From contig JAISIN010000005.1 of NCBI GenBank assembly GCA_031262085.1, forward strand, positions 1 to 64,000: a DNA stretch of 64,000 bases, given 5' to 3'. The notes beneath the pieces were generated by a model. It was given only the letters and a program-made list of their open reading frames with translations. It did not search any database and was not told the DNA's origin. The stretch comes from Prevotellaceae bacterium. Its GTDB lineage: Bacteria > Bacteroidota > Bacteroidia > Bacteroidales > Bacteroidaceae. The position numbers and the translations under genes are program-made. Below are positions 45,873-60,858 of this stretch, one piece after another; the first letter of the stretch is position 1; each line of letters opens with the position of its first letter.

Positions 45873-47130
45873 GGCTACCGCTGATCTGGTTGTAGAGTTC
45901 GATGTATCGTTTGGCGACCGCCTGCTCTGAGTAGTGGGTGCTCACCTTTCGGCACGCCTGCTCGGAGAGGGCGGTGTAGTCGGGGGCGGTGAGCAGGCTG
46001 AAGATGCCGCGCGCAAAGTCCTCGGCAGAGCGATAGTCTGCCACATAGCCGTTCTGTTCGTGGTCAATCATCTCGGGGATGCCGCCCGTGCGGAACCCGA
46101 CGCACGGCACGCCGCACGCCATGGCTTCCATGATGGTGTTGGGGAGGTTCTCCTCGAGCGAGGGGGTGACGTAGAGGTCGGCGGCGTTGTATATCTCCAC
46201 CAGCCGGTGTTCGTCGATGACGAAATCCATCGGGTAGACCTTGAAGGGGAGCAGGTTCTCCAACCGGCGCGACTGATTGCCCAAGACGATGACGCCGAGA
46301 CGGTCGGTCAGCTCGGGATGTTGCTCGGCAAGGAGTTGGCACGATTCGACCATGTAGTCGAACCCTTTGCGTTTGTCGGTGATCTTCACCGAGCCGAAGA
46401 GCAGCAGCCTGCCTGCTTCGGGCAGTTGGCAGGCACGGCGCGCCTCCTGCTTGTTCATCGGGCGGAAGAGGCGTGTATTGATGGGGTTGGGAATGACGGT
46501 GACGGACTGTCCGGCAAGCAAGAGGCTCTTCTCCACCTCTGTTTTCAGCCATTGGCTACAGGCAACGAAGTGTATTTTCCGTCCTTTATAGAGTTTCAGC
46601 TTCCTGCGATAGGTGCGATAGGCGAGGTCGTGCTTGCCTCCGCCGCCGTAGAGGTAGGGGCAGTGGTGGCACCCCGTGACGTAGCGGTCGCATTGGCGGG
46701 CGTGGTGGCAGATGCCGGTGGCAGCCCACATGTCGTGCATCGTCCATACCACGGGCTTGCCCGAAGCCAATATCTTGTCGATCTGCTTGAGCGAGAGCAT
46801 GCCCTGATTGATCCAGTGGAGATGCACCACGTCGGCTTCGCGGAACTCGGGCAACGGCGTGACGTCTGTACCCGTGTTGGCGATGTCCACGGCGAAGAGC
46901 TGGTGCTTCTTGAAGTGGTTGGCGCGCCATATGACGATGCGCTCCCATACGAACTTCCACATCAGTCGCCACGAACCTTTGAGCGGCACCACGCTGATCG
47001 CTTCGGTCTGTTTGTCGCGCACCAGCAATTTGGCTTTGACGCCGTTGGCTGTGAGTGCTTCCATCAGACGAACGGCAGCCACAGCTGCTCCGCCGATGCG
47101 CTCGGATGTATTGATTAATAGTATTCTCAT
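45865..47130 (-). CDS. Glycosyltransferase family 4
   Basis: LINTSERIGGAAVAAVRLMEAL, VYPMDFV…YNAADLYVTPSLEENLPNTIMEAMACGVPCVGFRTGGIPEMI. Confidence 0.95.
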   Translation of the reverse strand: MRILLINTSERIGGAAVAAVRLMEALTANGVKAKLLVRDKQTEAISVVPLKGSWRLMWKFVWERIVIWRANHFKKHQLFAVDIANTGTDVTPLPEFREADVVHLHWINQGMLSLKQIDKILASGKPVVWTMHDMWAATGICHHARQCDRYVTGCHHCPYLYGGGGKHDLAYRTYRRKLKLYKGRKIHFVACSQWLKTEVEKSLLLAGQSVTVIPNPINTRLFRPMNKQEARRACQLPEAGRLLLFGSVKITDKRKGFDYMVESCQLLAEQHPELTDRLGVIVLGNQSRRLENLLPFKVYPMDFVIDEHRLVEIYNAADLYVTPSLEENLPNTIMEAMACGVPCVGFRTGGIPEMIDHEQNGYVADYRSAEDFARGIFSLLTAPDYTALSEQACRKVSTHYSEQAVAKRYIELYNQISGSHA

Positions 47131-47243
47131 ACTGCGGTTATGCTTGATTAATTTGTATGCTTATAGGGCGGCTATGCTTGATTAAATTGCGCAAAAGTAG
47201 TGGTTTTTGGTGACTTTCCGGCAAATTGGGGAGTAATTCGCCC

Positions 47244-47366
47244 GATAATACGTTCACAGAGAAGCTGAAAGCGTTGTTAGCGAAATATCCGACGGTAGAT
47301 ATTCATGCAATGGGCTTCTCTGATGGGTGGGAAGAAGAGGAACCCGGGTTTATCATTACCTACTGA
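47244..47366 (+). pseudogene. C-terminal remnant of an Abi family (Abi_2/AbiD-type) protein
   Basis: DNTFTEKLKALLAKYPTVDIHAMGFSDGWEEEEPGF…* matches the characteristic Abi_2 C-terminus; no upstream portion. Confidence 0.6.
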
Positions 47367-47384
47367 AAACGTTATAGAGCCTAT

Positions 47385-47598
47385 TTTTTAGCAAATCTCC
47401 TGCAAGAAATCACCGCCAATCTAAATAAAAGCGGTAGCATTCAACGTAGCCATCGAAAAGAATCGCAAGGTATCTCTTCCCGCTTATCCACCCATCACGC
47501 TCTACTACTGGAAGCGGGAGTATCAAGAACTCGGCGTGGTAAGTCAAGAGATAGAGGGCTACACAGTCCGCATCTATCATCCGGAAAAGTCGGTGTGC
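47385..47598 (+). pseudogene. Internally deleted partial copy of the AbiEi-like gene at 49579-50166 and its leader
   Basis: 47385-47437 nearly matches 49501-49553; 47436-47598 nearly matches 49842-50004. Confidence 0.9.
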
Positions 47599-47744
47599 CA
47601 TGATTGTATCGTTTAACGAGCGGCAAAGTTATCTCTTTCTCCCTACCTTTCTGCGGTTTTTCTCCCTACTTTTTTGTGATTTAATAGTCATATTAGCGTA
47701 CTGCGCTTTGTTGAGAAAGGGGCATAGCTTTAAAGTGAATGTTG

Positions 47745-48155
47745 TTAAATGGCAAGCCACTCTGCGGGCGATAATACCAGGATTTTGGATGAGCGAAAGT
47801 CTTTTTTGTTGCGCGTAATGATGGCACTAACAGAACTATCTTGTGAAGCTGCGTAGTATTGTATCGCATCTTCGAAATCAGAAAAGTCCGAATGCAATGC
47901 CTGTTGGATAATGCTTTCATTAACCGGAAGAATTGATACGTATTCAGATAAGTCAGATAGTGCAGCAATCGCGTTTTTGTTCCCTATACGCTTACGAAGA
48001 ATATAATAGATATTTGCATACGACAAGGCGCACACAGATAAATGAATCTCCTTTCTTTCTGCTGCGTCAAACAGATATGCCGCTGATTCGGCATAACCTT
48101 CACGATTAGCCAACAAGTCAATTACGACATTTGTATCAACAAAATAATGCTTCAT
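47745..48155 (-). CDS. PIN-domain toxin (VapC-type)
   Basis: MKHYFVDTNVVIDLLANREGYAESA…. Confidence 0.92.
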   Translation of the reverse strand: MKHYFVDTNVVIDLLANREGYAESAAYLFDAAERKEIHLSVCALSYANIYYILRKRIGNKNAIAALSDLSEYVSILPVNESIIQQALHSDFSDFEDAIQYYAASQDSSVSAIITRNKKDFRSSKILVLSPAEWLAI

Positions 48156-48418
48156 AAAATCCGGTCTTCCAGTTCTTTTTTGTAGTCATACTCCTCGGGT
48201 AACGTTATGATGCCGCGCAATTTAGAGGTTATTTTTTCGTGCTCCGCAGTAAATGTCTTATGCTTCAAAGACAGTTGTTGTGGTATTGACAAATATTTTA
48301 TCAATGCATTCTCTATCAAAGTAGACAGTGAAACCCCTTGCCGTTTTGCCGATTGCTCGGCAACATTCAGCAAGGCGGTGTTCAAATCCAATTGCAATGT
48401 TTGGTGTTCTGTTCTCAT
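48152..48418 (-). CDS. Antitoxin (DUF6364/RHH-like) of the PIN toxin
   Basis: Small ORF overlapping the toxin start by 4 nt; LQLDLNTALLNVAEQSAKRQGVSLSTLIENALIKYL. Confidence 0.8.
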   Translation of the reverse strand: MRTEHQTLQLDLNTALLNVAEQSAKRQGVSLSTLIENALIKYLSIPQQLSLKHKTFTAEHEKITSKLRGIITLPEEYDYKKELEDRIL

Positions 48419-48495
48419 ATCTAAAACATCTTGATTATCTGCCTACAAAGGAACATGTTTTGTGGTTAACAGCCAAACTTTTTTGCTATAAAAGA

Positions 48496-48561
48496 CAGTG
48501 ACTATTTGTACGTGCTTCAGTGACTATTTGTACGTGGTTCAGTGACTACCTCTATATGACG
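48496..48561. repeat. 22-bp tandem repeat cagtgactatttgtacgtg(c/g)tt, 2 clear units plus a decayed third
   Basis: Units at 48496-48517, 48518-48539, decayed 48540-48561. Confidence 0.9.
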
Positions 48562-48736
48562 ACTGCCACGGACTTTTGTGCATGATCCGACCAGGGTCAG
48601 GGGAAATGGCACGCGGATGACACGGATGGGGCGGATGAGCGCGGATTTGCAGAAGGGGGGAAAATGTATGACGTTCGTTTCGTAAGTAACTAAAAGGGCG
48701 TATCTTTGCCGCGAATTAATAATATATGGATCTATT

Positions 48737-48904
48737 ATGGCTATTACAATAAAAAGTATCCCGGTTCTTGAAGGCAAAACAGCCGAAGAATTTGTGCGTA
48801 AAGCAGAACAGAACGCTACTTTGCGCACCCCCTCGTTATCTAAAACCGAGGCAGACCGGTTACAAAAAGTATTGGATAAATCTAAAAGATTTAAGTTTCA
48901 ATGA
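48737..48904 (+). CDS. Small antitoxin-like protein (55 aa) missing from the ORF track
   Basis: ATG 48737: MAITIKSIPVLEGKTAEEFVRKAEQNATLRTPSLSKTEADRLQKVLDKSKRFKFQ*; TATCTTTG promoter-like element just upstream. Confidence 0.65.
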   Translation: MAITIKSIPVLEGKTAEEFVRKAEQNATLRTPSLSKTEADRLQKVLDKSKRFKFQ

Positions 48905-49292
48905 CCGCGACAGCATCAAAACGCGCGCTTTGCAATCGAACGCCAAGAACCGATTGCAACGACACATCGTCAATCCCAAACGCGGACGCAGCTATCCTGC
49001 CGTTCTTATCGGGCGATTGGGTGTGAACTGTAATTTTCAAGGCAAGTTCTATCACGTTGGCAGTCAGCTAATGACTTTTATCAAAGAATGGTTCCGACAC
49101 GAGGATAACAAAACTGGTTGTCGTTTCCTCGTCGTCGATGCTTATAATGACCCGCGTGTTCTTCATTATTACGAATCGAACGGGTTTGCTCCTTTGCACA
49201 AAAGCGAAGATGACGAGAAAGGGTATTATGACATAGCAAAAGAAGAACTTCTGAAAACGCGACTGATGTATTTCGATTTGAAGCAGGCGTGA
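48892..49292 (+). pseudogene. N-terminally truncated GNAT acetyltransferase (toxin-type)
   Basis: LSFNDRDSIKTRALQSNAKNRLQRHI…SYPAVLIGRLGVNCNFQGKFYHVGSQLMTFIKEWF…VDAYNDPRVLHYYESNGF…TRLMYFDLK; N-terminal GNAT part absent. Confidence 0.7.
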
Positions 49293-49578
49293 TGTGGAGT
49301 GCCTTGATTTGATATTAGTTATGACCTTTATTTCCAGAGTCCGCTTTATGTGTACGACTTTTTGCGGGAAGAAATAGAAAGGTGAGGTGCTACGTGATTG
49401 GATAGGTACGCTTATTGCGGTCTCATCTTGTTTCGGTGAACGGACATGACCGTTTTTCGTGGGTGGATATGCGCCATATCTCCCATGTTTACAACGATAC
49501 TTTTTAGCAAATCTCCTGCAATAAATCACCGCCAATCTAAATAAAAGCGGTAGATTTGTCCCGTCAAAGGAAATATCT

Positions 49579-50166
49579 ATGAATCAAGAACTACAGCTTT
49601 TGTTTCAACAGCATGGCGGCTATCTGGTACGGCGATTGTTGCCGGACAAGCCTACCTACAACCAACTGTTGCAGTTGGTGAAAGCCGGGGTGGTGGAACG
49701 CCTCAAGCAGGGCGTGTATCACTACGCGGGCGATGGAGATGTCAACCGCACGATGATCAATCTCGAAGCCGTCATGCCCGGCGGTGTGCTCTGCATGTAT
49801 TCCGCATGGGCATACTACGGATTGAGCACACAGATACCGCAAGCATTCAACGTAGCCATCGAAAAGAATCGCAAGATATCTCTTCCCGCTTATCCGCCCA
49901 TCACGCTCTACTACTGGAAGCGAGAGTATCAAGAACTCGGCGTGGTAAGTCAAGAGATAGAGGGCTACACAGTCCGCATCTATCATCCGGAAAAGTCGGT
50001 GTGCGATGCTGTCAAATTCCGCTTGAAGATAGGGCTGGACGTAACGGCAGAGATACTGAATAGCTATCTGAAACGGAAAGATCGCAACCTCGCGCTATTG
50101 ATGGAGTACGCCCGAATGATGCGAATAGAGCGTGTGATGCGAACTTATTTGGAGACGAGGGTATGA
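49579..50166 (+). CDS. AbiEi-family (type IV TA) antitoxin-like transcriptional regulator, no AbiEii partner
   Basis: wHTH N-term (GGYLVRRLLPDKPTYNQLLQLVKAGVVERLKQGVYHYAG), SAWAYYGLSTQIPQAFNVAIEKNRK, YHPEKSVCDAVKFRLKIGLD. Confidence 0.85.
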   Translation: MNQELQLLFQQHGGYLVRRLLPDKPTYNQLLQLVKAGVVERLKQGVYHYAGDGDVNRTMINLEAVMPGGVLCMYSAWAYYGLSTQIPQAFNVAIEKNRKISLPAYPPITLYYWKREYQELGVVSQEIEGYTVRIYHPEKSVCDAVKFRLKIGLDVTAEILNSYLKRKDRNLALLMEYARMMRIERVMRTYLETRV

Positions 50167-50374
50167 TAAAGGATATAGGGAAGTCAGTCAAAGCCGGACA
50201 TAAAATGTCAGTTTGCACATCCATCCGTGTGCTTTATACATGAGCAGATGGAAACAGCGTTTCTTACTACTCTTTCATTTCTTACTACAATCAAAAAGTG
50301 ATTGAAAATAAGTGTATTAGTTGAGTTATGAGGATGAGCTAATGCACTGTTTCTTACTACAATTTCATTTCTTA

Positions 50375-52009
50375 CTACTTTTCCGCCTCAATGACCCATA
50401 CAGGCTGTTTGGTAGAATGAGAGGTGTTCTTGATTCTCCCGTCTTTAGCCAATTTCGATGTGATGTTAGACACTTTTCTTTGTTGTTTATCAACAGGCAT
50501 ATCGGTAGATAAGGTTGGAATGATCAGATTCTCAATATCATCTCTTGTCGCAGAACCATTCCTTATAATAAACTGCATGATCATCTGTTTATAGTTTTCA
50601 TACGACAAGTCTGCATCTTTTCGTACATCCGAAATGAGTACGTTGGACTTCCAATCTCTTATTAATCCCAGCTTTTTCAATCGTTCCATTTCTCCCGCCT
50701 GCAACGCTTCGCCCTTCTGCACCTTATCCAACGCAATGATCTCGTCTATCGACAGCTCGGGGCGTGCTTTCAATAGTCGGGAATAATTCTCGTTGATGAT
50801 ATTACCGAATATCGTCACTTCCGTATGATTTTCATCGGAGATATTATAAGTGGGCATGGGGAAGTATCGTTCCTTTTGGATGGTAAATATCTTCTTGATA
50901 CCGCTCCCGATGGTATCAATCATATTCAGCGTAACCATGGCGCTTACCAAAAACGGATTGCGGTAGTAGCGTTGCGGTCGGTCATAACGGATCACCTCTT
51001 CGATGGAATCAGGAATGAATCCGCCCGCATTATCAAAAATGAGCCGGTCGTTATACTCCAAGACAAGGATTCGTTCCGAGCTTTCATACCGTTGGTGTGC
51101 CACACAATTATGTAATATCTCACGAATCGCCCATTCGTCGTAGTGATAAATCTCTTCCGGGAACAGGGTTGTTTCGTCGACCATATAGCGGTATTTCGTA
51201 TTGCGGATGCAGGCAAGTACCTTATCCACATTTAGGATGAATGGCGTGTAGAAATGCTCATACCCTTCGGGGGCATCCTTTAGTATCCATGAAATCTGCC
51301 CGATAGCCGGAGATAGAAAATGGTTTGATTCGTTCTTCCCGAGCAACAAGATGGCAGTGTTGGTTATCATTCCGTCCAGCGTGATTTTGGCTTTGTCCAA
51401 AAAGAGAGCGTCATCCCAACGGTCTACATCCGCTGCTAATTTCGGATACTTCTTCTTAAACTGCTCCCGCGCTTTTTGTATTGCCTCTTTGTCAAGATGC
51501 TCTATCGTTGCCTCCGAAACAATGTTTTTCGACCAATCATACCCTGTCGCCTGATTGCGAATGCGTTCTATCTTTTCGATATTCAATGCCACAAGGCTAT
51601 CGTGAGCGCGACCATAATAAAAGCCCTCGAAAGCTACCGGAATGCCTTGGGGTGCAGCAGGTATCTGAAACATCACCACCCGACCTTCCGGCTCGTGCAA
51701 TTCGTGAATCTCCATGAAAGAGATTCCTTGCGTGGTTTTGTCGCCGATCTCTTTCTTGAGGCTGTCCAGCTTCTTGCGGTCTGTGCGATAGTTACTGCCC
51801 ACGATGCGGTGTTTCTTATCTTCCACGCCAAAGACAAGCCATGCGTAGGGATGCCCTTTCAAGTTCGCTTCGTTGCTCAAAGCCGAGAAGTACTTCCCGA
51901 TTTTGTCGAAGTCGAAGCCCTCTTTGGCTTCTTTGAACTCTACGACTTCGCTTTCGGACGAAAGGGCGGTCAGTGCTGAAAATATCTTGTGCAATTCGAT
52001 TGCTGTCAT
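50375..52009 (-). CDS. AlbA_2 (Schlafen AlbA)-type ATP-binding/transcriptional regulator-like protein
   Basis: SSESEVVEFKEAKEGFDFDKIGKYFSALSNEANLKGHPYAWLVFGV; HATPase_c_4-like REILHNCVAHQRY…LEYNDRLIFDNAGGFIP; start at ATG 52009. Confidence 0.88.
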   Translation of the reverse strand: MTAIELHKIFSALTALSSESEVVEFKEAKEGFDFDKIGKYFSALSNEANLKGHPYAWLVFGVEDKKHRIVGSNYRTDRKKLDSLKKEIGDKTTQGISFMEIHELHEPEGRVVMFQIPAAPQGIPVAFEGFYYGRAHDSLVALNIEKIERIRNQATGYDWSKNIVSEATIEHLDKEAIQKAREQFKKKYPKLAADVDRWDDALFLDKAKITLDGMITNTAILLLGKNESNHFLSPAIGQISWILKDAPEGYEHFYTPFILNVDKVLACIRNTKYRYMVDETTLFPEEIYHYDEWAIREILHNCVAHQRYESSERILVLEYNDRLIFDNAGGFIPDSIEEVIRYDRPQRYYRNPFLVSAMVTLNMIDTIGSGIKKIFTIQKERYFPMPTYNISDENHTEVTIFGNIINENYSRLLKARPELSIDEIIALDKVQKGEALQAGEMERLKKLGLIRDWKSNVLISDVRKDADLSYENYKQMIMQFIIRNGSATRDDIENLIIPTLSTDMPVDKQQRKVSNITSKLAKDGRIKNTSHSTKQPVWVIEAEK

Positions 52010-52114
52010 ACTTTTATGTTTTGGATGAGGATGCAAAAGTAGGGATTGATAGCAAATGGAACAAGAATGGCGGGGATTATCTTTGGTTTGGTGGGCGGTT
52101 ATGCGCCGTTCTTG

Positions 52115-52139
52115 CACATATTCCATTTTGGAATATGTG
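52115..52139. repeat. Perfect inverted repeat, 11-bp arms, 3-nt loop (cacatattcca ttt tggaatatgtg)
   Basis: Direct reading. Confidence 0.95.
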
Positions 52140-52323
52140 GGTAACGATGGTAAGCGAAAACGCACGAACTCTAACTGATAATCTTACGTGGTAGACTGAA
52201 CGAGCAGAAAACGAAGAGGTGTACTTTATCGGGGACTTACTTTTATTCGTGACCGTTATCTTGAAAGTAAAAAGAACAGCCAAAGATTCGTTTCACATTG
52301 TCGCTTTACTGAAAGATTTAAAA

Positions 52324-53115
52324 TCAGGGCGACGGAATCGTTGGAGTTGCTGACGTAGTGGATGTTTCTGAATAGACAATCTTAGCAAGATTTGCCATTG
52401 TTTCTGCTGGTTTTTCAGACATAAATATATTTCTGCCAAAACTAACACCAAAGATACCACAGTTCATTAAATCAGCTGTGCGTCTATAAAACTCCCCTCG
52501 TTCCAAGATATCACCACCAGCAACTACAACAGGAATTAAGGCATCTTTAATAATGGAACTTAGCTCTTCACAATTCCAATTAGAATCAATTTTTACTATA
52601 TCCGCACCAAGTTCTGATGCAATACGAATAGAATGCTTTGCAGAACTAATATTTGCTATGCCCTTGTTGTCATTGTCTCTTATATACATCATTGCCAATA
52701 AAGGCATTCCATAAGTTTGGCAATCCTTACTTATTCTAGCAAAATCAGCAAGCATTAACTTTTCATACTCATTACCAAGATTGATATGAATAGAAACGGC
52801 ATCTGCCCCAATACTCACAGCTTCGGCGACTTCACAAATAATTACTTTGTGAACAGGTTTATGTTTTTCCGTACTTGCAGATAAATGAACTATCAATCCT
52901 GTGTTATTTAGGGGAGGCAAAAACCGAACCATCCCCTTATGGACAACTATTGACGAAGCCCCATTTGCTATAATCGTATTTACTGCGTTCTTAAATTTAG
53001 CCAAATGAGATATTTCACTCATTGTGATTCCATGATCAAGTGGCACACACAGCATCTTATTATGGTGCAATAATCTGTTTATGCGAATATCTTTCCCATT
53101 CATACTGTTTGTCAA
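52324..53115 (-). CDS. Class I aldolase of the DeoC/FbaB/ADH-synthase (2-amino-3,7-dideoxy-D-threo-hept-6-ulosonate synthase-like) family
   Basis: CVPLDHGIT, LLAMMYIRDND, GADIVKIDSN (Schiff-base Lys position), IPVVVAGG. Confidence 0.85.
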   Translation of the reverse strand: MTNSMNGKDIRINRLLHHNKMLCVPLDHGITMSEISHLAKFKNAVNTIIANGASSIVVHKGMVRFLPPLNNTGLIVHLSASTEKHKPVHKVIICEVAEAVSIGADAVSIHINLGNEYEKLMLADFARISKDCQTYGMPLLAMMYIRDNDNKGIANISSAKHSIRIASELGADIVKIDSNWNCEELSSIIKDALIPVVVAGGDILERGEFYRRTADLMNCGIFGVSFGRNIFMSEKPAETMANLAKIVYSETSTTSATPTIPSP

Positions 53116-53876
53116 ATATTTACAGATCTGCCACCGTCAATGATATACATTGAGCCTGTAATCCATTTTGCTTTTTCTGTGGTTAAAAAGAAGATTAATT
53201 CACTAACATCTTTACATTCTCCTATTCCAATAGGATAGTCTTTAGAAATATTATCCAAAAAACTCTCGTATTGAAATTCATCCATTAGATTGTTATTTAC
53301 TTGAAAACCGCTTTTTGTAATACCCGGATTAACCCCGTTAACTCTAATTTTATATTTGCTTAATTCTCTTGCAAGACACATTGTCACCATATCAACCCCT
53401 GCTTTTGCTACGGAATAACCCATTGAAGCACCAGCAAGTTTCGACGAAATAGAAGAGATATTCACTATACTAGGGTATTTCGAACATTTCAACATATCTA
53501 CAAATATCTTTGTAACATAGAAAAAGCTCGACAAATTATTTGAGATGCAAGAATTCCAATTTTCAAAACTCAAATCCTCTAATCCGCCTGGAATTATGTT
53601 CCCTGCATTGTTTATCAAAACATCTATTTTTGAAAATTTAGTTGATATTTCTTTTTGAACTTTTTCTATTTCACTTTTATCAGAAACATCTGCCTGGAAA
53701 AAATGGACTTGCTTCCCAAATTGCTTTAATGCAAGTTTTGCATTTTCAATTTTTCTTTTTGATCGTGATATTGAAATAATTTCAATATTTTCGTTTAATT
53801 CATTTAAAAACTTATGAATAGTAGATAACCCTATTCCAGTTGTTCCACCTGTTATCAAAATTACTTTTTTGTCCAT
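53112..53876 (-). CDS. SDR family oxidoreductase
   Basis: ILITGGTTGIGLSTIHKF, INNAGNI, GYSVAKAGVDMVT, RVNGVNPG. Confidence 0.95.
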   Translation of the reverse strand: MDKKVILITGGTTGIGLSTIHKFLNELNENIEIISISRSKRKIENAKLALKQFGKQVHFFQADVSDKSEIEKVQKEISTKFSKIDVLINNAGNIIPGGLEDLSFENWNSCISNNLSSFFYVTKIFVDMLKCSKYPSIVNISSISSKLAGASMGYSVAKAGVDMVTMCLARELSKYKIRVNGVNPGITKSGFQVNNNLMDEFQYESFLDNISKDYPIGIGECKDVSELIFFLTTEKAKWITGSMYIIDGGRSVNI

Positions 53877-53896
53877 TTCTTACCTCCAAGTATATA

Positions 53897-54316
53897 TTAT
53901 GGCAGAAGTTCGATTTTGATACCTTGTCCACCTTCAGTAGATAATTTTACAGCTTCTTTAGCAAAATCATCCAAACCTTCTGTTACCATTCCAACAGCTG
54001 ATCCATTCATAAAGCCTTGCGCTCCAACAGCCCAACCTCTATCATACCACAAATCAAATGCAATAAGATTTTCTTCTAATTGCATTAAAATAATTTCGCC
54101 AATTGAAGGCAAAAAAGTTTCATTTTCATGTGCATAACCAGGGAAGTTCGGCATTTGTGTCCATATTTCTCCACCACCCCATTTGGCATGAAATGCTTGA
54201 GCCTCGTGCGGCAACATAGTCATTAACTTGCTTACCATTTGTGGGCATTTGTCTTCTCTAAGAGTAGCAATTGCGCTGACATTTGCCTTTAATAAAGTGA
54301 TTTTTATCTTTTTCAT
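53897..54316 (-). CDS. DUF3830-like (cyclophilin-like fold) protein
   Basis: EAQAFHAKWGGGEIWTQMPNFPGYAHENETFLPSIGEIILM…WYDRGWAVGAQGF pattern. Confidence 0.7.
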   Translation of the reverse strand: MKKIKITLLKANVSAIATLREDKCPQMVSKLMTMLPHEAQAFHAKWGGGEIWTQMPNFPGYAHENETFLPSIGEIILMQLEENLIAFDLWYDRGWAVGAQGFMNGSAVGMVTEGLDDFAKEAVKLSTEGGQGIKIELLP

Positions 54317-54347
54317 TTTAAAAGTTTTTTATATGTTTAAAATTATT

Positions 54348-55226
54348 CTATTTCTGGAATAGCAATATAGCATCGCCTACACTGTTTACATCATAGTTTA
54401 TAAGCACTGAAAAGTTCTCCTCTTGTGCCTTATTAACTAACCAACTTTTCTTAATCAAGAATTCTCCATTTCGGTTTCTTACTTTAATATAGGCTTGATG
54501 CTCTCGTATTTTACTATTTTCTGCTTCTTCTGTTGCTTTTCGAATATCTTCATCACCAACACCTTTCAGATAATTCCAAAAAGTCGCTGATTCTGTTTCT
54601 TTCTTTCTTAGCTCATAAAGAGTTTCTAACGACTTGTCTTTTTTCAATTCCGTCTCTTTGCAATTTTCAGGAAGAAAATCATCTGCAATGCAAAAGAAAG
54701 AATCCGACCTCATATTGTCATAAATATTTGACAGAAAATCTCCTTTTTCTTTTTTTCTTATGTTATCATCAGGAATATGATGAAAATTATAAAGCATATA
54801 TGTGAGATCATAATCTTTCAATGACTCTTGGATAAAATTGTTCAACTGTTCTTTTTCAATGTATTTGATTGTGATATTGGTTAGTCCTTTCTCATTTGCT
54901 ATTTTAGTAGCCATGTCTGTCATAGGTTTATTAGTATTTACAATAGTTATTTTCACGCCTTTATATTGCTCTGCTACTTTAACTGCTGTTTGCGAACCAC
55001 CAAACCCTAATTCTAAAATTGCTTTGGGTTTAATTAAATCAATGAGTTTAATTAAATTTGTCTGCAAACACAAATAGACAGAGTCGTGAGTAAGGTACCT
55101 TTCCTGTATCTCTTGGATATCGTAATAGGAGACAGGAGCATTTATTGGAATCTGCTCTTTCTCTGTAGATTCTTCTCGCGCACTATCTTTGCGTTGTATG
55201 CCGACTGGTTTGTAAGATTCTGACAT
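54348..55226 (-). CDS. Class I SAM-dependent methyltransferase
   Basis: LIKPKAILELGFGGSQTAVKVAEQYKGVKITIVNTNK (motif I), YDLTYMLYNFHHIPDDNI. Confidence 0.82.
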   Translation of the reverse strand: MSESYKPVGIQRKDSAREESTEKEQIPINAPVSYYDIQEIQERYLTHDSVYLCLQTNLIKLIDLIKPKAILELGFGGSQTAVKVAEQYKGVKITIVNTNKPMTDMATKIANEKGLTNITIKYIEKEQLNNFIQESLKDYDLTYMLYNFHHIPDDNIRKKEKGDFLSNIYDNMRSDSFFCIADDFLPENCKETELKKDKSLETLYELRKKETESATFWNYLKGVGDEDIRKATEEAENSKIREHQAYIKVRNRNGEFLIKKSWLVNKAQEENFSVLINYDVNSVGDAILLFQK

Positions 55227-55245
55227 ATACTATCCTCCTTTGGTT

Positions 55246-55695
55246 TTAGTTCATTTTGTCAATAACGTCTGAATCCAATATAGAATTTTCAGCTAATCTC
55301 AAACCATCATCTATTTTTCCCACATGGACAGTATTCGTGTTATACGATTTGTCTGTTTTGAGATTGTGCCAAGAATTGATGTCATCTATATATTTATACA
55401 ATATAAGTAATTCTTTATACCAATCATACTTATCCAAAAGCGTAATTTTGGTTGAGTTTACATAGGCTTTGAAAACAGGTGTTTTTATAGGGGATAAAAA
55501 GAGCGAGTCTCGCTGTTCTCGAGTACTTCTTATCGTTACTATTGCTTCTGCAAGTTCTTCCTTTATTTTGTTTTTTACTTCTTCCGCATCCTTGTTTCTT
55601 TTGGATGACTCAGCATTCTTTTGTACTCTTAATGCTAAATATACACCAATAGCAGTTGCAGCTAAAGCAACTATAAAATTCATAAAGTATTCCAT
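55246..55695 (-). CDS. Hypothetical protein with single N-terminal TM and coiled-coil-like segment
   Basis: MNFIVALAATAIGVYLALRVQKNAESSKRNKDAEEVKNKIKEELAEAIV…. Confidence 0.7.
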   Translation of the reverse strand: MEYFMNFIVALAATAIGVYLALRVQKNAESSKRNKDAEEVKNKIKEELAEAIVTIRSTREQRDSLFLSPIKTPVFKAYVNSTKITLLDKYDWYKELLILYKYIDDINSWHNLKTDKSYNTNTVHVGKIDDGLRLAENSILDSDVIDKMN

Positions 55696-55899
55696 TCTTC
55701 ATTTTCTTTATGCGTTTTTGCTTACTCTTTACTGGATTTTCGGCATTACTCCATTTAGCAAATACATCAGGGGAACTTTTTCTTACATATAGTCGGTGTT
55801 TTGCTATTACTCCACCATGGAGCAGGAAATTATTTTTATTCCACATGCAAGACATTAACTAAATACCTTTTCCCATTCTTAAATTTCACATACGGACAC

Positions 55900-56150
55900 A
55901 AAAAAAGCGTGGAGCTATCGAATATTACCCGTCTGAGGCTCTGGACTGCCTACCACTTGTAATAAACAATAGCCCACGCCTCTGTTATATAAGCCACCGA
56001 TTAGGTGAGTATATAGCATTGACGTGAGCGTTCTTGTCTATTATCCCAAGTGGTCGAAATTGTCCAGATTTCAGACTGAGGATAATATCGTAAACGCTTT
56101 CGTTATCAATATGTCATCTTTGGCTTCAAATTGCTTCTCTACCAAAGATG
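55900..56150 (-). ncRNA. Candidate structured non-coding RNA (rod-like, 6S-like architecture) ending in an intrinsic terminator
   Basis: Nested complementary segments 55904-10:56094-100, 55919-27:56083-90, 55931-46:56062-76, 55952-65:56041-54, 55986-98:56004-15; alternative terminator hairpin 55907-20:55967-79 followed by T7 on minus strand; minus-strand TACATTTG at 56161-56154. Confidence 0.65.
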
Positions 56151-56431
56151 TTGCAAATGTACGACTAATTTTTATCCCGCATCATAAATAAGCAACTTTT
56201 TTCGATGGGAATATTCAACTTTTCAACTAATCGCCAGTTATCGTAGCCTTTTCTGCCAATTTGCCGCCATCAAGAGGTCATGACAGGAAGCGCAGGTGAT
56301 GCGAATAAAGAGACCCTCGAAATGATTCGTTTGTTGCGGATTTTTGCAGGAGGTATCTCCGATGACCGCAATATCTTCCCTCCGCTTCTATTAAAGAATC
56401 TGAAAAGTCTTGACGACTATTCCCTTTTGTT

Positions 56432-56439
56432 TACCTTTG
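56432..56439 (+). promoter_or_regulatory. -7 element TACCTTTG, candidate promoter of the HU gene, giving a ~460-nt leader
   Basis: TAnnTTTG match upstream of the repeat array; no other clear element nearer the ATG. Confidence 0.4.
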
Positions 56440-56473
56440 CCGCGCTCTTTCCGGTGAGGTCTTCAACTCATTT

Positions 56474-56813
56474 TCCCGAGTAGAAGTAGTCGCGGGGCTG
56501 AGAAGAAGAACTTGCGAGGACGAGTAGAAGTAGTCACGGGGCTGAGAAGAAGAACTCGTCGGGGACGAGAAGAAGCAGTTGCCGCGTCGCCCAAAGCAAC
56601 TTGCCGCGACGTTCACTTCTACTCGCCGAGCGAGTAGAGCAACCCGCCGGAACGAGTAGAGCTACTCGTCGAAAGGAGTAGAAGTGAACGATGCGACGAG
56701 TAGAAGTGGCGCAAAATCGAGAAGAAGAACCTTTCGGAACGAGTAGAAAAACCCGCAAGGTTGAACAGAAGAACTCACCGCGACGAATAGAAAGGGTCGC
56801 GACGATAAGAAGA
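56474..56813 (+). repeat. Degenerate ~19-23-bp tandem repeat array (consensus approx. acgagtagaagNNctcgcgg)
   Basis: About 16 units readable, e.g. acgagtagaagtagtcgcgggg / ctgagaagaagaacttgcgagg / acgagtagaagtagtcacgggg; one segment inverted (cacttctactcg). Confidence 0.85.
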
Positions 56814-56908
56814 AGATTTCAAATTCCTACTACTAACACAAAAACGACATGATTATTAACCGCCACGCGCAAGCGTGGTAATTGTATAACTAAAAAAACG
56901 GTAGGAAT

Positions 56909-57391
56909 ATGAGTATTTTACTTAATTCTGTACAGCGCGTTAACCCGCGCGACGTCAAAGCACCCAAGAAGTGGTACTTTGTACAGCACGTAAGTGCACA
57001 ACTCAGCGAAACAGATGTCGCTCAGTTTATCTCCGACGAGACCACCCTGAATGAGGGCGAAGCGCTGATGGCGATTCGTCAGTTACACAAAGTGTTGCTC
57101 CGCGCACTGCTCAACGGGCAGAGTGTGAAACTGGGAAATTGGGGCTACTTCGGTCTCTCGATCAACTCCGAAGGGGTTGAGAAAAAGTCGGACTTGACCG
57201 TCCACAACATCAAGCACGTCAACGTCACTTTCCAACCTGGTGAAGAGCTGAAAGCCGAACTGCAAAAAGCAACTTTCGTGTCGCTGGATAAGATTGTCCT
57301 TGGCTCGAAAGCCGACGACGGCAATAATTCCGGCGGCGGTGGAAACACCGGCGGCGGGGGCAATGATGGGGATGACGACCCGTATCAATAA
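56909..57391 (+). CDS. HU-family DNA-binding protein with Gly/Asn/Asp-rich C-terminal tail
   Basis: AQFISDETTLNEGEALMAIRQLHKVLLRALLNGQSVKLGNWGYFGLSINSEG; tail NNSGGGGNTGGGGNDGDDDPYQ. Confidence 0.93.
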   Translation: MSILLNSVQRVNPRDVKAPKKWYFVQHVSAQLSETDVAQFISDETTLNEGEALMAIRQLHKVLLRALLNGQSVKLGNWGYFGLSINSEGVEKKSDLTVHNIKHVNVTFQPGEELKAELQKATFVSLDKIVLGSKADDGNNSGGGGNTGGGGNDGDDDPYQ

Positions 57392-57431
57392 CGCCACAAA
57401 AGCCGAAGAGATACCTCTCCGCCAAGCAAGC

Positions 57432-57475
57432 CAAACGGCACAACCTGCAAAGGTTGCGCCGTTTGTTGTTTTATG
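57432..57475 (+). terminator. Intrinsic terminator after the HU gene
   Basis: aaacggcacaacctgcaaaggttgcgccgtttgttgtttt. Confidence 0.8.
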
Positions 57476-57488
57476 AATAATACGGTAT

Positions 57489-59069
57489 CTATTCTTTTAT
57501 GACTACCCAAATACCGCCTTTGGATGAGCCTTCGTGCCTGATCTTTCCATCCTCTTTGAGCTTTTCTATATGATGCCGTACACTTCCAATAGAGATGGAT
57601 AGTTGTTTAGCTATCAATGGGCGAGATATATCCGGAGCAGATTCAAGTAAATTGATAATTTTTAGCTGAATGCCTAAATTAGGTAGATCATTTTTGGATT
57701 CTTTTTCTGGTTGTTTTCTTGTGGTTTTCAGGTCGTTTTCTGGTTGTTTTCTAGTTGTTTTCTTGTGGTTTTTGGGTTGTTTCTGGGTTGCTTTTGGGTT
57801 GTTTTCAGGTTGTTTTTGGGTTGTTTTCAGGTTGTTTTCTTGTGGTTCCTTTACGCTATCCGGCATCACCACCTTACCATCTTTGAGCATAAAAGTGACC
57901 TTTGTTTTGTCCACCCACGTATCGAACGTCACCTCTTGTTGGGTTTCCGCCTTCCAAGCGAGCATCTTATCGAAGCCGTAGCCGGCATTTTCGCAGAGGT
58001 TTGCTACGCGGAACAGTTTCGCTATCACCGGGTTGCGGGGAATGGTGACATCTTCGTTGAGCAGCTCCTTGACCGGTCGGGGCAGTGCGCCCGGGTTTTC
58101 AAACTCGATGCGATTGGTGAATACGCGGATGCGCGGCTTCATCGGGCTGAAGAAATCGGTATGCATGAGGAGGTTGACCAATGCTTCTCTGAGCGCGTCC
58201 TGCTGCTTGGTATCTTCGCGTCCGATGCCCATATCGCCGATATAGAGCGGGTTGTCGGCATAGATGCGTATTCGCTGGAACAGCACAAAGTAGTACTCCC
58301 ACAGGTTCTCTTGCTCCTGAATGCGATAGGTATAGCGCGGTTCGGCATCGGCATAAGAGAGAGCGGGTATCTCGAGGTAATCCACCCGGAAGTCGGGGAA
58401 GCTGTCTTGTATCTCTTCGTTGCGACCGAACATCAGCAGACCTCCGTAAGTCAGTTTGCCCTCTTTCACGATTTGCAGTTTGCGGTTAAACGTTTCGTCG
58501 TCCAGCGCATTGTACGAGAGTTCGGGTACCATGCGTTTGAGGTAGCCGCGGAAATTTTTGTAGGAGGAGGGGTTGAGCGAATCGGGTGTGGTCCCGTCGA
58601 CCGTTTTCGCCGACATGCTGCCGAAGGATTGGTCGCGGTAGAGTGCATTGATTTCGTGCTCTGTGGCTCGTTGGTCGCCACTCGCAGTACGGATAAACGT
58701 GTTTTGCAGGGCATTGAAATAGACCGGCTTCTTGTCTGCCGACGGAATATAGAACGCCAACACGGTCATCCCGTCAATGATATACTTCCGACATTCGGGC
58801 ATAATCACCAGATTGAATTTCTGCTTGCTACGCAGGGTAGTTGTGAAATCCTGCTCTATCTTTTCGGGATGCTCCACGCCCACTACTTCATACTTCTTCC
58901 CTTGCTGATGTACGCCAAATACAATCCAACCACCTGCTGCGTTAGAGAATGCGCTAACCGTTTCCCAAACATTCTTCGGGAGTTCGTGCGATGCCTTTTT
59001 AACCTCAAAGTCGTCCCACTCGATGTCTGTAAGACGCTGAATCAGTGCTTCTTTGTTCATAGGGGGCAA
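57489..59069 (-). CDS. AlbA_2-type ATP-binding protein with C-terminal winged-HTH and repeat linker
   Basis: EWDDFEVKKASHELPKNVWETVSAFSNAAGGWIVFGVHQQG; LREALVNLLMHTDFFSPMKPRIRVFTNRIEFENPG; linker NNLKTTQKQPENNPKATQKQPKNHKKTTRKQPEND…. Confidence 0.9.
   Translation of the reverse strand: MPPMNKEALIQRLTDIEWDDFEVKKASHELPKNVWETVSAFSNAAGGWIVFGVHQQGKKYEVVGVEHPEKIEQDFTTTLRSKQKFNLVIMPECRKYIIDGMTVLAFYIPSADKKPVYFNALQNTFIRTASGDQRATEHEINALYRDQSFGSMSAKTVDGTTPDSLNPSSYKNFRGYLKRMVPELSYNALDDETFNRKLQIVKEGKLTYGGLLMFGRNEEIQDSFPDFRVDYLEIPALSYADAEPRYTYRIQEQENLWEYYFVLFQRIRIYADNPLYIGDMGIGREDTKQQDALREALVNLLMHTDFFSPMKPRIRVFTNRIEFENPGALPRPVKELLNEDVTIPRNPVIAKLFRVANLCENAGYGFDKMLAWKAETQQEVTFDTWVDKTKVTFMLKDGKVVMPDSVKEPQENNLKTTQKQPENNPKATQKQPKNHKKTTRKQPENDLKTTRKQPEKESKNDLPNLGIQLKIINLLESAPDISRPLIAKQLSISIGSVRHHIEKLKEDGKIRHEGSSKGGIWVVIKE
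57690..57850 (-). repeat. Imperfect tandem repeat coding the (K)TTxKQPEN linker
   Basis: Repeated ttttctggttgttttcttgtggttt / ttttgggttgttttcaggttg units. Confidence 0.9.
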
Positions 59070-59253
59070 AATTAGGGAGAATTATTGAATGCTCAAATCG
59101 GTGGGCGTTTTATTTTTAGGAGTTGCCGGTGTCGAGGTTGCGCATCATGCCACGATGCGTTATAAGGTGCACAAAAAGTATGGTTTTTCCCTTGAAATCG
59201 TGTAAGCAGTCCACTTATTTCGTAGCTTTGCAGCCATTTAAAAACAGCATAAC

Positions 59254-60858
59254 ATGATAAGAAAGTATGATTTTCTGGTGATAGGCTCAGGCCTTGCCGG
59301 AATGAGCTTTGCGCTGAAAGTGGCACAGAAGGGCAGTGTAGCCTTGATTTGTAAAGCAGGTATGGAGGAGGCAAATACCTATTTTGCACAGGGTGGCATC
59401 GCCTCGGTGACCAATTTTGCCGTAGACAGCTTCGACAAACACATCGAAGACACGATGATCGCAGGCGACTTCATCAGCGACCGACCTGCCGTAGAGATGG
59501 TGGTGCGCAATGCACCCGCACAGATTCAGGCGCTCATCGACTGGGGCGTGGAGTTCGACAAGAAGGAGAACGGCGAGTTCGACCTGCACCGCGAGGGCGG
59601 ACATTCGGAGTTCCGCATCTTGCACCACAAAGATAATACGGGTGCCGAGATACAAACCAGCCTCATCAAAGCCGTTCAGGCGCATCCCAACATCACGATA
59701 TTCACCAACTTCTTCGCCGTGGAGATTATCACGCAGCACCACCTGGGCATCATCGTGACCCGCTACACGCCCGGCATCAAGTGCTACGGCGCCTACGTGC
59801 TCAACGAAGCCACGGGCGAGGTGGATACCTTCCTCTCCAAGCTCACCGTGATGGCTACGGGCGGTTGCGAAGCGGTCTACCGGCACACCACCAATCCGCT
59901 GGTGGCTACGGGCGACGGCATCGCCATGGTCTATCGCGCCAAGGGAGCGGTCAAGGATATGGAGTTTATCCAGTTTCACCCCACGGCGCTCTACCATCCG
60001 GGCGACCGCCCCAGCTTCCTCATCACCGAGGCGATGCGGGGCTACGGTGCCATCCTGCGCAACGCCGACGGCGAAGAGTTTATGCAGAAATATGACGCAC
60101 GCCGCGAACTGGCACCGCGCGACGTGGTGGCGCGCGCCATCGACAAAGAGCTGAAGCTGCGCGGCGAAGACCATGTCTATTTAGACGTGACGCACAAAGA
60201 GCCGGAGGAGACACGGAAGCACTTCCCCACCATCTATCAGCACTGCAAAGAGATTGGTCTCGATATTACCCGGGAGTATATCCCCGTGGCACCCGCTGCC
60301 CACTACCTCTGCGGAGGCATCAAGGTCGATCTGGACGGACAGTCCACCATCCGCCGGCTCTATGCCTTGGGCGAATGTTCGTGCACGGGCTTGCACGGCG
60401 GCAACCGCCTCGCCTCCAACTCCCTGCTCGAGGCAGTGGTCTATGCCGATGCCGCCGCCCGCCATGCGCTGAGCGTGGTAGACCGCTACGACTTCAACAC
60501 CGACATCCCCGAATGGAACGACGAGGGCACCATCTCCAACGAAGAGCGGGTCTTGATCACCCAAAGCAGCAAGGAGGTGAACCAGATTATGGAGGCTTAT
60601 GTGGGCATCGTGCGCAGCAACATCCGACTGACACGGGCTTGGAACCGCCTCGACATCATCTATGAGGAGACCGAAGCGTTGTTCAAACACAGCAAAGCGT
60701 CACGCGAGATCTGCGAACTGCGCAACATGATCAACGTGGGCTATCTCATCACCCGTCAGGCAATGGAGCGGAAAGAGAGCCGCGGGCTGCACTATACCAT
60801 CGACTATCCGCACCCCACTATCGCCGCGCATACTTCCGCGGATAACCGGAATAAATAG
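59254..60858 (+). CDS. nadB: L-aspartate oxidase
   Basis: DFLVIGSGLAGMSFALKVA, NTYFAQGGIASV, FIQFHPTALYHPG, ALGECSCTGLHGGNRLASNSLLEAVVY. Confidence 0.96.
   Translation: MIRKYDFLVIGSGLAGMSFALKVAQKGSVALICKAGMEEANTYFAQGGIASVTNFAVDSFDKHIEDTMIAGDFISDRPAVEMVVRNAPAQIQALIDWGVEFDKKENGEFDLHREGGHSEFRILHHKDNTGAEIQTSLIKAVQAHPNITIFTNFFAVEIITQHHLGIIVTRYTPGIKCYGAYVLNEATGEVDTFLSKLTVMATGGCEAVYRHTTNPLVATGDGIAMVYRAKGAVKDMEFIQFHPTALYHPGDRPSFLITEAMRGYGAILRNADGEEFMQKYDARRELAPRDVVARAIDKELKLRGEDHVYLDVTHKEPEETRKHFPTIYQHCKEIGLDITREYIPVAPAAHYLCGGIKVDLDGQSTIRRLYALGECSCTGLHGGNRLASNSLLEAVVYADAAARHALSVVDRYDFNTDIPEWNDEGTISNEERVLITQSSKEVNQIMEAYVGIVRSNIRLTRAWNRLDIIYEETEALFKHSKASREICELRNMINVGYLITRQAMERKESRGLHYTIDYPHPTIAAHTSADNRNK

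Follow-up and report, generated by a model that had tools for sequence, protein, structure and literature searches.

Genes of the operon

The window, that is, the whole stretch of 64,000 nucleotides analysed, contains five packed open reading frames on its minus strand, at the positions given for them by an earlier, sequence-only reading. The first, gene X (55246-55695), encodes a protein of 149 amino acids with a single N-terminal transmembrane helix (residues 3-25) and a helical tail; it belongs to no family and has no relatives in the sets searched. It is followed by genes for a class I SAM methyltransferase (54348-55226; 292 amino acids), a DUF3830 protein (53897-54316; 139 amino acids), a classical SDR (53112-53876; 254 amino acids) and an ADH-synthase-like class I aldolase (52324-53115; 263 amino acids). 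Profile searches bear out the proposed families of the latter four (Methyltransf_25, 1e-6; DUF3830, 1e-20; adh_short, 3e-45; DeoC/LacD, 6e-39), with nothing found for X. All five frames are intact and co-oriented, separated by intergenic gaps of about 20-31 nt in addition to the SDR/aldolase junction. At this junction, the 4-nt overlap described before needs a TTG start for the aldolase. An in-frame ATG at 53103 encodes MNGKDIR, in agreement with the family N-terminus, making it the likelier start; the two genes would then be separated by 8 nt, and the overlap is uncertain.

The cofactor and catalytic motifs of the SDR (TGGTTGIG, NNAG and YSVAK, as read from its sequence) are intact. The DUF3830 protein has a relative of known structure (3KOP); genes of this family adjoin dihydropyrimidinase genes in proteobacteria, and are present in 3 of 396 Bacteroidota genomes, the present one included. 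Remote relatives of the methyltransferase (30-32%) are encoded by three haloarchaeal plasmids (L005, L006 and L007), in which the related methyltransferase forms a conserved pair with a VOC protein. Single-sequence AlphaFold models of X and the methyltransferase had pLDDT values of 39 and 45, and were left unused.

The aldolase contains the motifs ascribed to it, VPLDHG (with Asp27), MMYIR (with Tyr144) and ADIVK (with Lys175), and also retains GG200-201 and GR227-228. The three named residues align with Asp33, Tyr153 and Lys184 of MJ0400, its best match in the PDB (2QJG, 1e-44), which are the catalytic residues of that enzyme. Its assignment as ADH-synthase-like (DhnA group) rather than FbaB/LsrF holds, as it passes the NCBIfam model PRK07226 (246.6, cut-off 241). 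A catabolic FbaB/LsrF aldolase was rejected, with 115.8 for the FBA model, which is that of the archaeal enzyme (cut-off 430), and 104.2 bits for LsrF (cut-off 297). A phage origin of the aldolase was rejected too, the only matches being three distant ones in phage collections and one viral contig. The closest relatives among the matches listed are about 42% identical at best, and in the tree the protein stands alone on a long, unplaced branch (end branch 3.63).

A species-specific low-GC island

The five genes have GC contents of 32, 33, 38, 31 and 37% and GC3 values of 24-29%, whereas the core genes of the window (n = 34) average 53% GC, with a minimum of 45%, and 63% GC3. The five are thus indeed more AT-rich than their surroundings (31-38% against a core-gene mean of 53%). 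Of 414 open reading frames sampled over 594 kb of this genome, only 10 have GC values below 39%. The codon-usage distance of the operon is 0.81 to the core genes and 0.70 to the adjacent SLFN genes, against 0.21-0.34 to five other modules headed by the RNA described below, a likeness partly forced by the low GC common to these modules.

The operon is located in a low-GC island of about 12 kb (47131-59205), at the limits of which homology to congeners ends; two genomes set the left limit, near 47130, and seven the right one, near 59205-59255. None of the island content was found at the corresponding limits in congeneric genomes. In relatives, the two genes flanking the island lie far apart or on separate contigs; therefore, only island limits can be set, and not a single empty site. 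The proposed recent acquisition of the five-gene set is supported. Within the island, the operon has as neighbours genes for a PIN protein, an AbiEi-like protein, two SLFN/AlbA_2 proteins and an HU-HIG protein. A 167-bp direct repeat (98%; 47436-47602 and 49842-50008) extends into the AbiEi-like gene and represents a partial gene duplication, while in an SLFN/AlbA_2 gene 11-bp repeats at 57681-57867 encode a linker of repeated K/T/Q/P/E/N residues. No PADLOC model matches any of the five operon proteins, and a known anti-phage defence system was rejected on this basis.

The gene combination, singled out before as unusual, was seen in no searched genome or plasmid. The sequence-only reading had named the lack of a conserved neighbourhood as grounds for its refutation, and no such conservation was seen when several hundred Bacteroidota genomes, 80 loci centred on aldolases, plasmids and phages were covered, in a search of limited sensitivity that used a long concatenated query and scored two candidates per genome.

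The structured RNA and its copies

Upstream of the operon, on the same strand, lies a dispersed repeat block of 313 bp (55888-56200, minus), made up of a promoter-proximal part and a structured RNA. Ten copies were scored in the genome, the nine others being 83-87% identical to this one. The promoter-like TAnnTTTG box, TACATTTG (56154-56161, minus), is conserved across the aligned copies; its consensus is that of the Bacteroidota-type -7 element, an established promoter class, and its use as a promoter is putative. The RNA element (55896-56150, minus) is about 255 nt long and closes with a hairpin and seven U residues, its 3' end lying 200 nt ahead of gene X; the core match of the covariance model spans 55902-56103 (minus; 221 bits). 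In the alignment of the copies, the box is followed by about 255 conserved nucleotides and a hairpin with a T run, after which similarity ends. The non-coding RNA locus suspected beside the operon is confirmed; it is a dispersed element, standing in front of other operons as well as this one.

Two observations concern the sequence around the element. A match to the Rfam DUF805b motif, just above its gathering score, is located 24 nt upstream of gene X (55719-55754, minus), outside the RNA element, and is not seen at other RNA copies. Tandem-like repeats of 22 nt occur upstream of the RNA (56477-56816), with similar ones upstream of the copies on contigs C103 and C24; the C103 copy is accompanied by a second HU-HIG-like gene.

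The covariance model detects no fewer than 11 full copies of the element in this genome and a twelfth, truncated one at the end of contig C52; the assembly is a MAG, 90.6% complete and in 134 contigs, and several copies are near contig ends. Matches were obtained in 41 of 149 Bacteroidales genomes, with E-values that are rough and scores far above threshold. Of 84 base pairs, 17 have changed on both sides, and 57 cells with such double changes were counted, against 18 ± 3.5 in shuffled controls and 3-13 in slid ones, so that covariation supports the fold. Each of the ten copies tested has two mutually exclusive folds available to it: a global rod, better by about 8-16 kcal/mol, and a local terminator hairpin. 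The terminator helix is mostly invariant and therefore receives weak support from covariation, and its U-tract is often imperfect outside the genus. Palindromic, terminator-like RNAs of Bacteroidetes have been reported among structured-RNA candidates from human microbiomes (HMP2 motifs; PMC8040213). Set against these and Rfam 15, the element is similar in type; no Rfam family (4227 models) matches it.

At 39 further loci (38 of them in other Bacteroidales, plus one more copy in the genome itself), the gene behind the RNA is co-oriented with it in 36 cases, compared with 53% at control gaps, and its start is often about 54 nt past the element. Unlike this recurrent distance, the gap within the genome itself varies from 40 to 740 nt. 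There, the first gene has less than 39% GC in 9 of 12 cases, against a background of 8 in 412 (about 2%; p 5e-12). The association is not absolute, as C106, C89 and the first gene of C130 do not fall below 39%.

The copies in the genome head unrelated conflict- or signalling-like operons, as well as single genes, and a small transmembrane protein is encoded in 6 of the 11 full-copy modules. Two operons (L120:770-4452 and L123:2229-6095) contain a kinase-like (histidine-kinase-like) ATPase, a receiver and a transmembrane protein, in versions that are 36-53% identical. Another, with SDR, NUDIX, transmembrane, Ppx-GppA and LOG proteins (L121:1847-6090; G000:C81), looks like a nucleotide-processing module. 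A further one, encoding a PH domain, proteins of 82 and 244 amino acids, ThiF/E1 and JAB (L122:2095-5399; G000:C125), is a possible ubiquitin-like conjugation module; its 82-residue protein has no Pfam match and is ubiquitin-like by eye only. A transmembrane protein, a G-alpha-like GTPase and a protein of 608 amino acids form a further operon (L124:964-4845; G000:C130), and an AAA ATPase and a transmembrane protein yet another. Since the RNA usually precedes a different foreign, AT-rich set of genes, the operon of the window appears to be one member of a series of exchangeable modules.

Interpretation of the operon and its RNA

In several genomes, a site-specific recombinase of the tyrosine or serine type is encoded directly upstream of the RNA (G003, G056, G011, G784, G546, Bacteroides finegoldii and an IMG/VR contig; loci L152, L148, L147, L211, L217, L144 and L142), in several of these loci with DUF3871/RadC further upstream. 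Several Bacteroidales copies have such a recombinase on their 5' side, and on their 3' side short low-GC genes arranged in an array, a layout resembling the published definition of rAID interbacterial-defence loci (PMC12247911). The operon shares with rAID loci its occurrence in Bacteroidales, gene lengths of about 100-300 codons and co-directional genes below 41% GC (five, of 31-38%, where at least two are called for), and elsewhere the RNA sits between the recombinase, several with DUF3871/RadC upstream, and a rAID-like array. It differs in having no tyrosine recombinase directly upstream and in coding, by Pfam, for metabolic enzymes and a transmembrane protein instead of recognisable orphan immunity genes. 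Conserved intergenic motifs have been published for rAID loci (Ross et al. 2019), and the RNA may correspond to these. No tyrosine recombinase was found beside the RNA copy in the neighbourhood covered by the window, nor elsewhere in the genome with the one query used; the mobility of this copy is therefore putative.

These recombinases bring up the main rival reading, in which cassettes insert at the RNA block, a recombination site folded as single-stranded DNA in the manner of integrons, and its transcription is incidental. A recombinase, a folded element and exchangeable gene modules are indeed common to integrons and the present loci, the covarying stems also fit a folded attachment site, and conservation ends sharply at the 3' end, where unrelated operons begin. 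However, the element is longer than attC, has promoter- and terminator-like ends and no integron integrase nearby, and it is not repeated between cassettes in the modules it heads; neither was a matching site found at their 3' ends. The recombinases belong to two unrelated classes and are absent beside the copies of the genome itself, whereas the conserved promoter-like box, the terminator U-tract and the recurrent distance to the start codon elsewhere suggest transcription. We therefore regard a role as recombination site as unlikely, if worth keeping in mind.

The other two readings concern the genes, and seem less probable still. The operon could consist of remnants that came together by chance in an island now decaying, its low-GC genes being unrelated and sharing no pathway, as might be thought from a set that recurs in no other searched genome and from an X protein devoid of relatives. 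Remnants would hardly be expected to consist of five intact, co-oriented and tightly spaced frames of uniform GC3, with the SDR and aldolase motifs preserved, which makes this reading improbable. We give least credence to a C7 amino-sugar pathway of the ADH-synthase or 3,4-AHBA type, such as archaea or the grixazone and bagremycin clusters have. In the known 3,4-AHBA route, a DhnA-type aldolase works with a GriH/BagC partner (PMC6692506). The aldolase of the operon shares with MJ0400 and with GriI, BagB and FevI the DeoC/DhnA family and the Asp/Tyr/Lys triad, and has the PRK07226 match in its favour, but it scores 221.4 bits with the ADH-synthase equivalog model TIGR01949 (cut-off 299) and 161 bits with the BagB/FevI model, far under the cut-off of 500. 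Of 80 relatives, 58 have DHQS-II close to the aldolase; here, as the sequence-only reading had remarked, the GriH/DHQ-synthase-like partner is missing from the operon, and the 90.6%-complete assembly gave no match to PF01959 (DHQS-II), for which control genomes did give matches. Because of the long, unplaced branch, the DHQS-II that was not found and a gene combination seen in no searched genome, the specific pathway that had been entertained is unsupported, and we consider it very improbable.

We favour, as the somewhat more probable account, that the operon is an acquired AT-rich module behind a dispersed, attenuator-like leader RNA, which heads many and varied acquired operons of Bacteroidales, and that its enzymes form a DHAP-type aldol, reduction and methylation pathway, the chemistry being judged from the protein families. 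That the operon belongs with the acquired modules headed by the RNA has good support. Computation shows the RNA family, its copy number and covariation, the fixed orientation and the low GC of downstream genes, the codon usage common to modules, and recombinases next to some of the copies. Transcription would start at the TAnnTTTG promoter. Given that the global rod and the intrinsic-terminator hairpin exclude each other, the RNA would gate expression of the downstream operon, whichever operon follows. The operon probably converts a sugar phosphate into a small molecule. The DhnA-type aldolase would join an aldehyde to DHAP, or to a related ketose phosphate, by way of a Schiff base formed on Lys175; the NAD(P)-dependent SDR would reduce the product and the methyltransferase would methylate it, this order of aldolase, SDR and methyltransferase being a guess. 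The DUF3830 protein would bind or isomerise an intermediate, and the product of gene X would anchor or sense at the membrane. The small molecule made would serve in competition or stress signalling.

More tentatively, Bacteroidales may carry a widespread two-state RNA, undescribed by Rfam, that serves acquired conflict modules in general as a leader for docking and expression. These modules would be operons for ubiquitin-like conjugation, kinase/receiver/transmembrane, nucleotide-processing and AAA/transmembrane operons, and rAID-type arrays. The operon of the window would be a new module of this platform, one that makes a small molecule. If this is true, the RNA would be a searchable flag for acquired competition and defence modules in gut Bacteroidales, including those unseen by protein models. 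Novel biosynthetic operons would be connected with ubiquitin-like operons and with rAID-like immunity arrays by one shared element, regulatory or for insertion, and the way in which these bacteria collect and express such modules would become directly testable.
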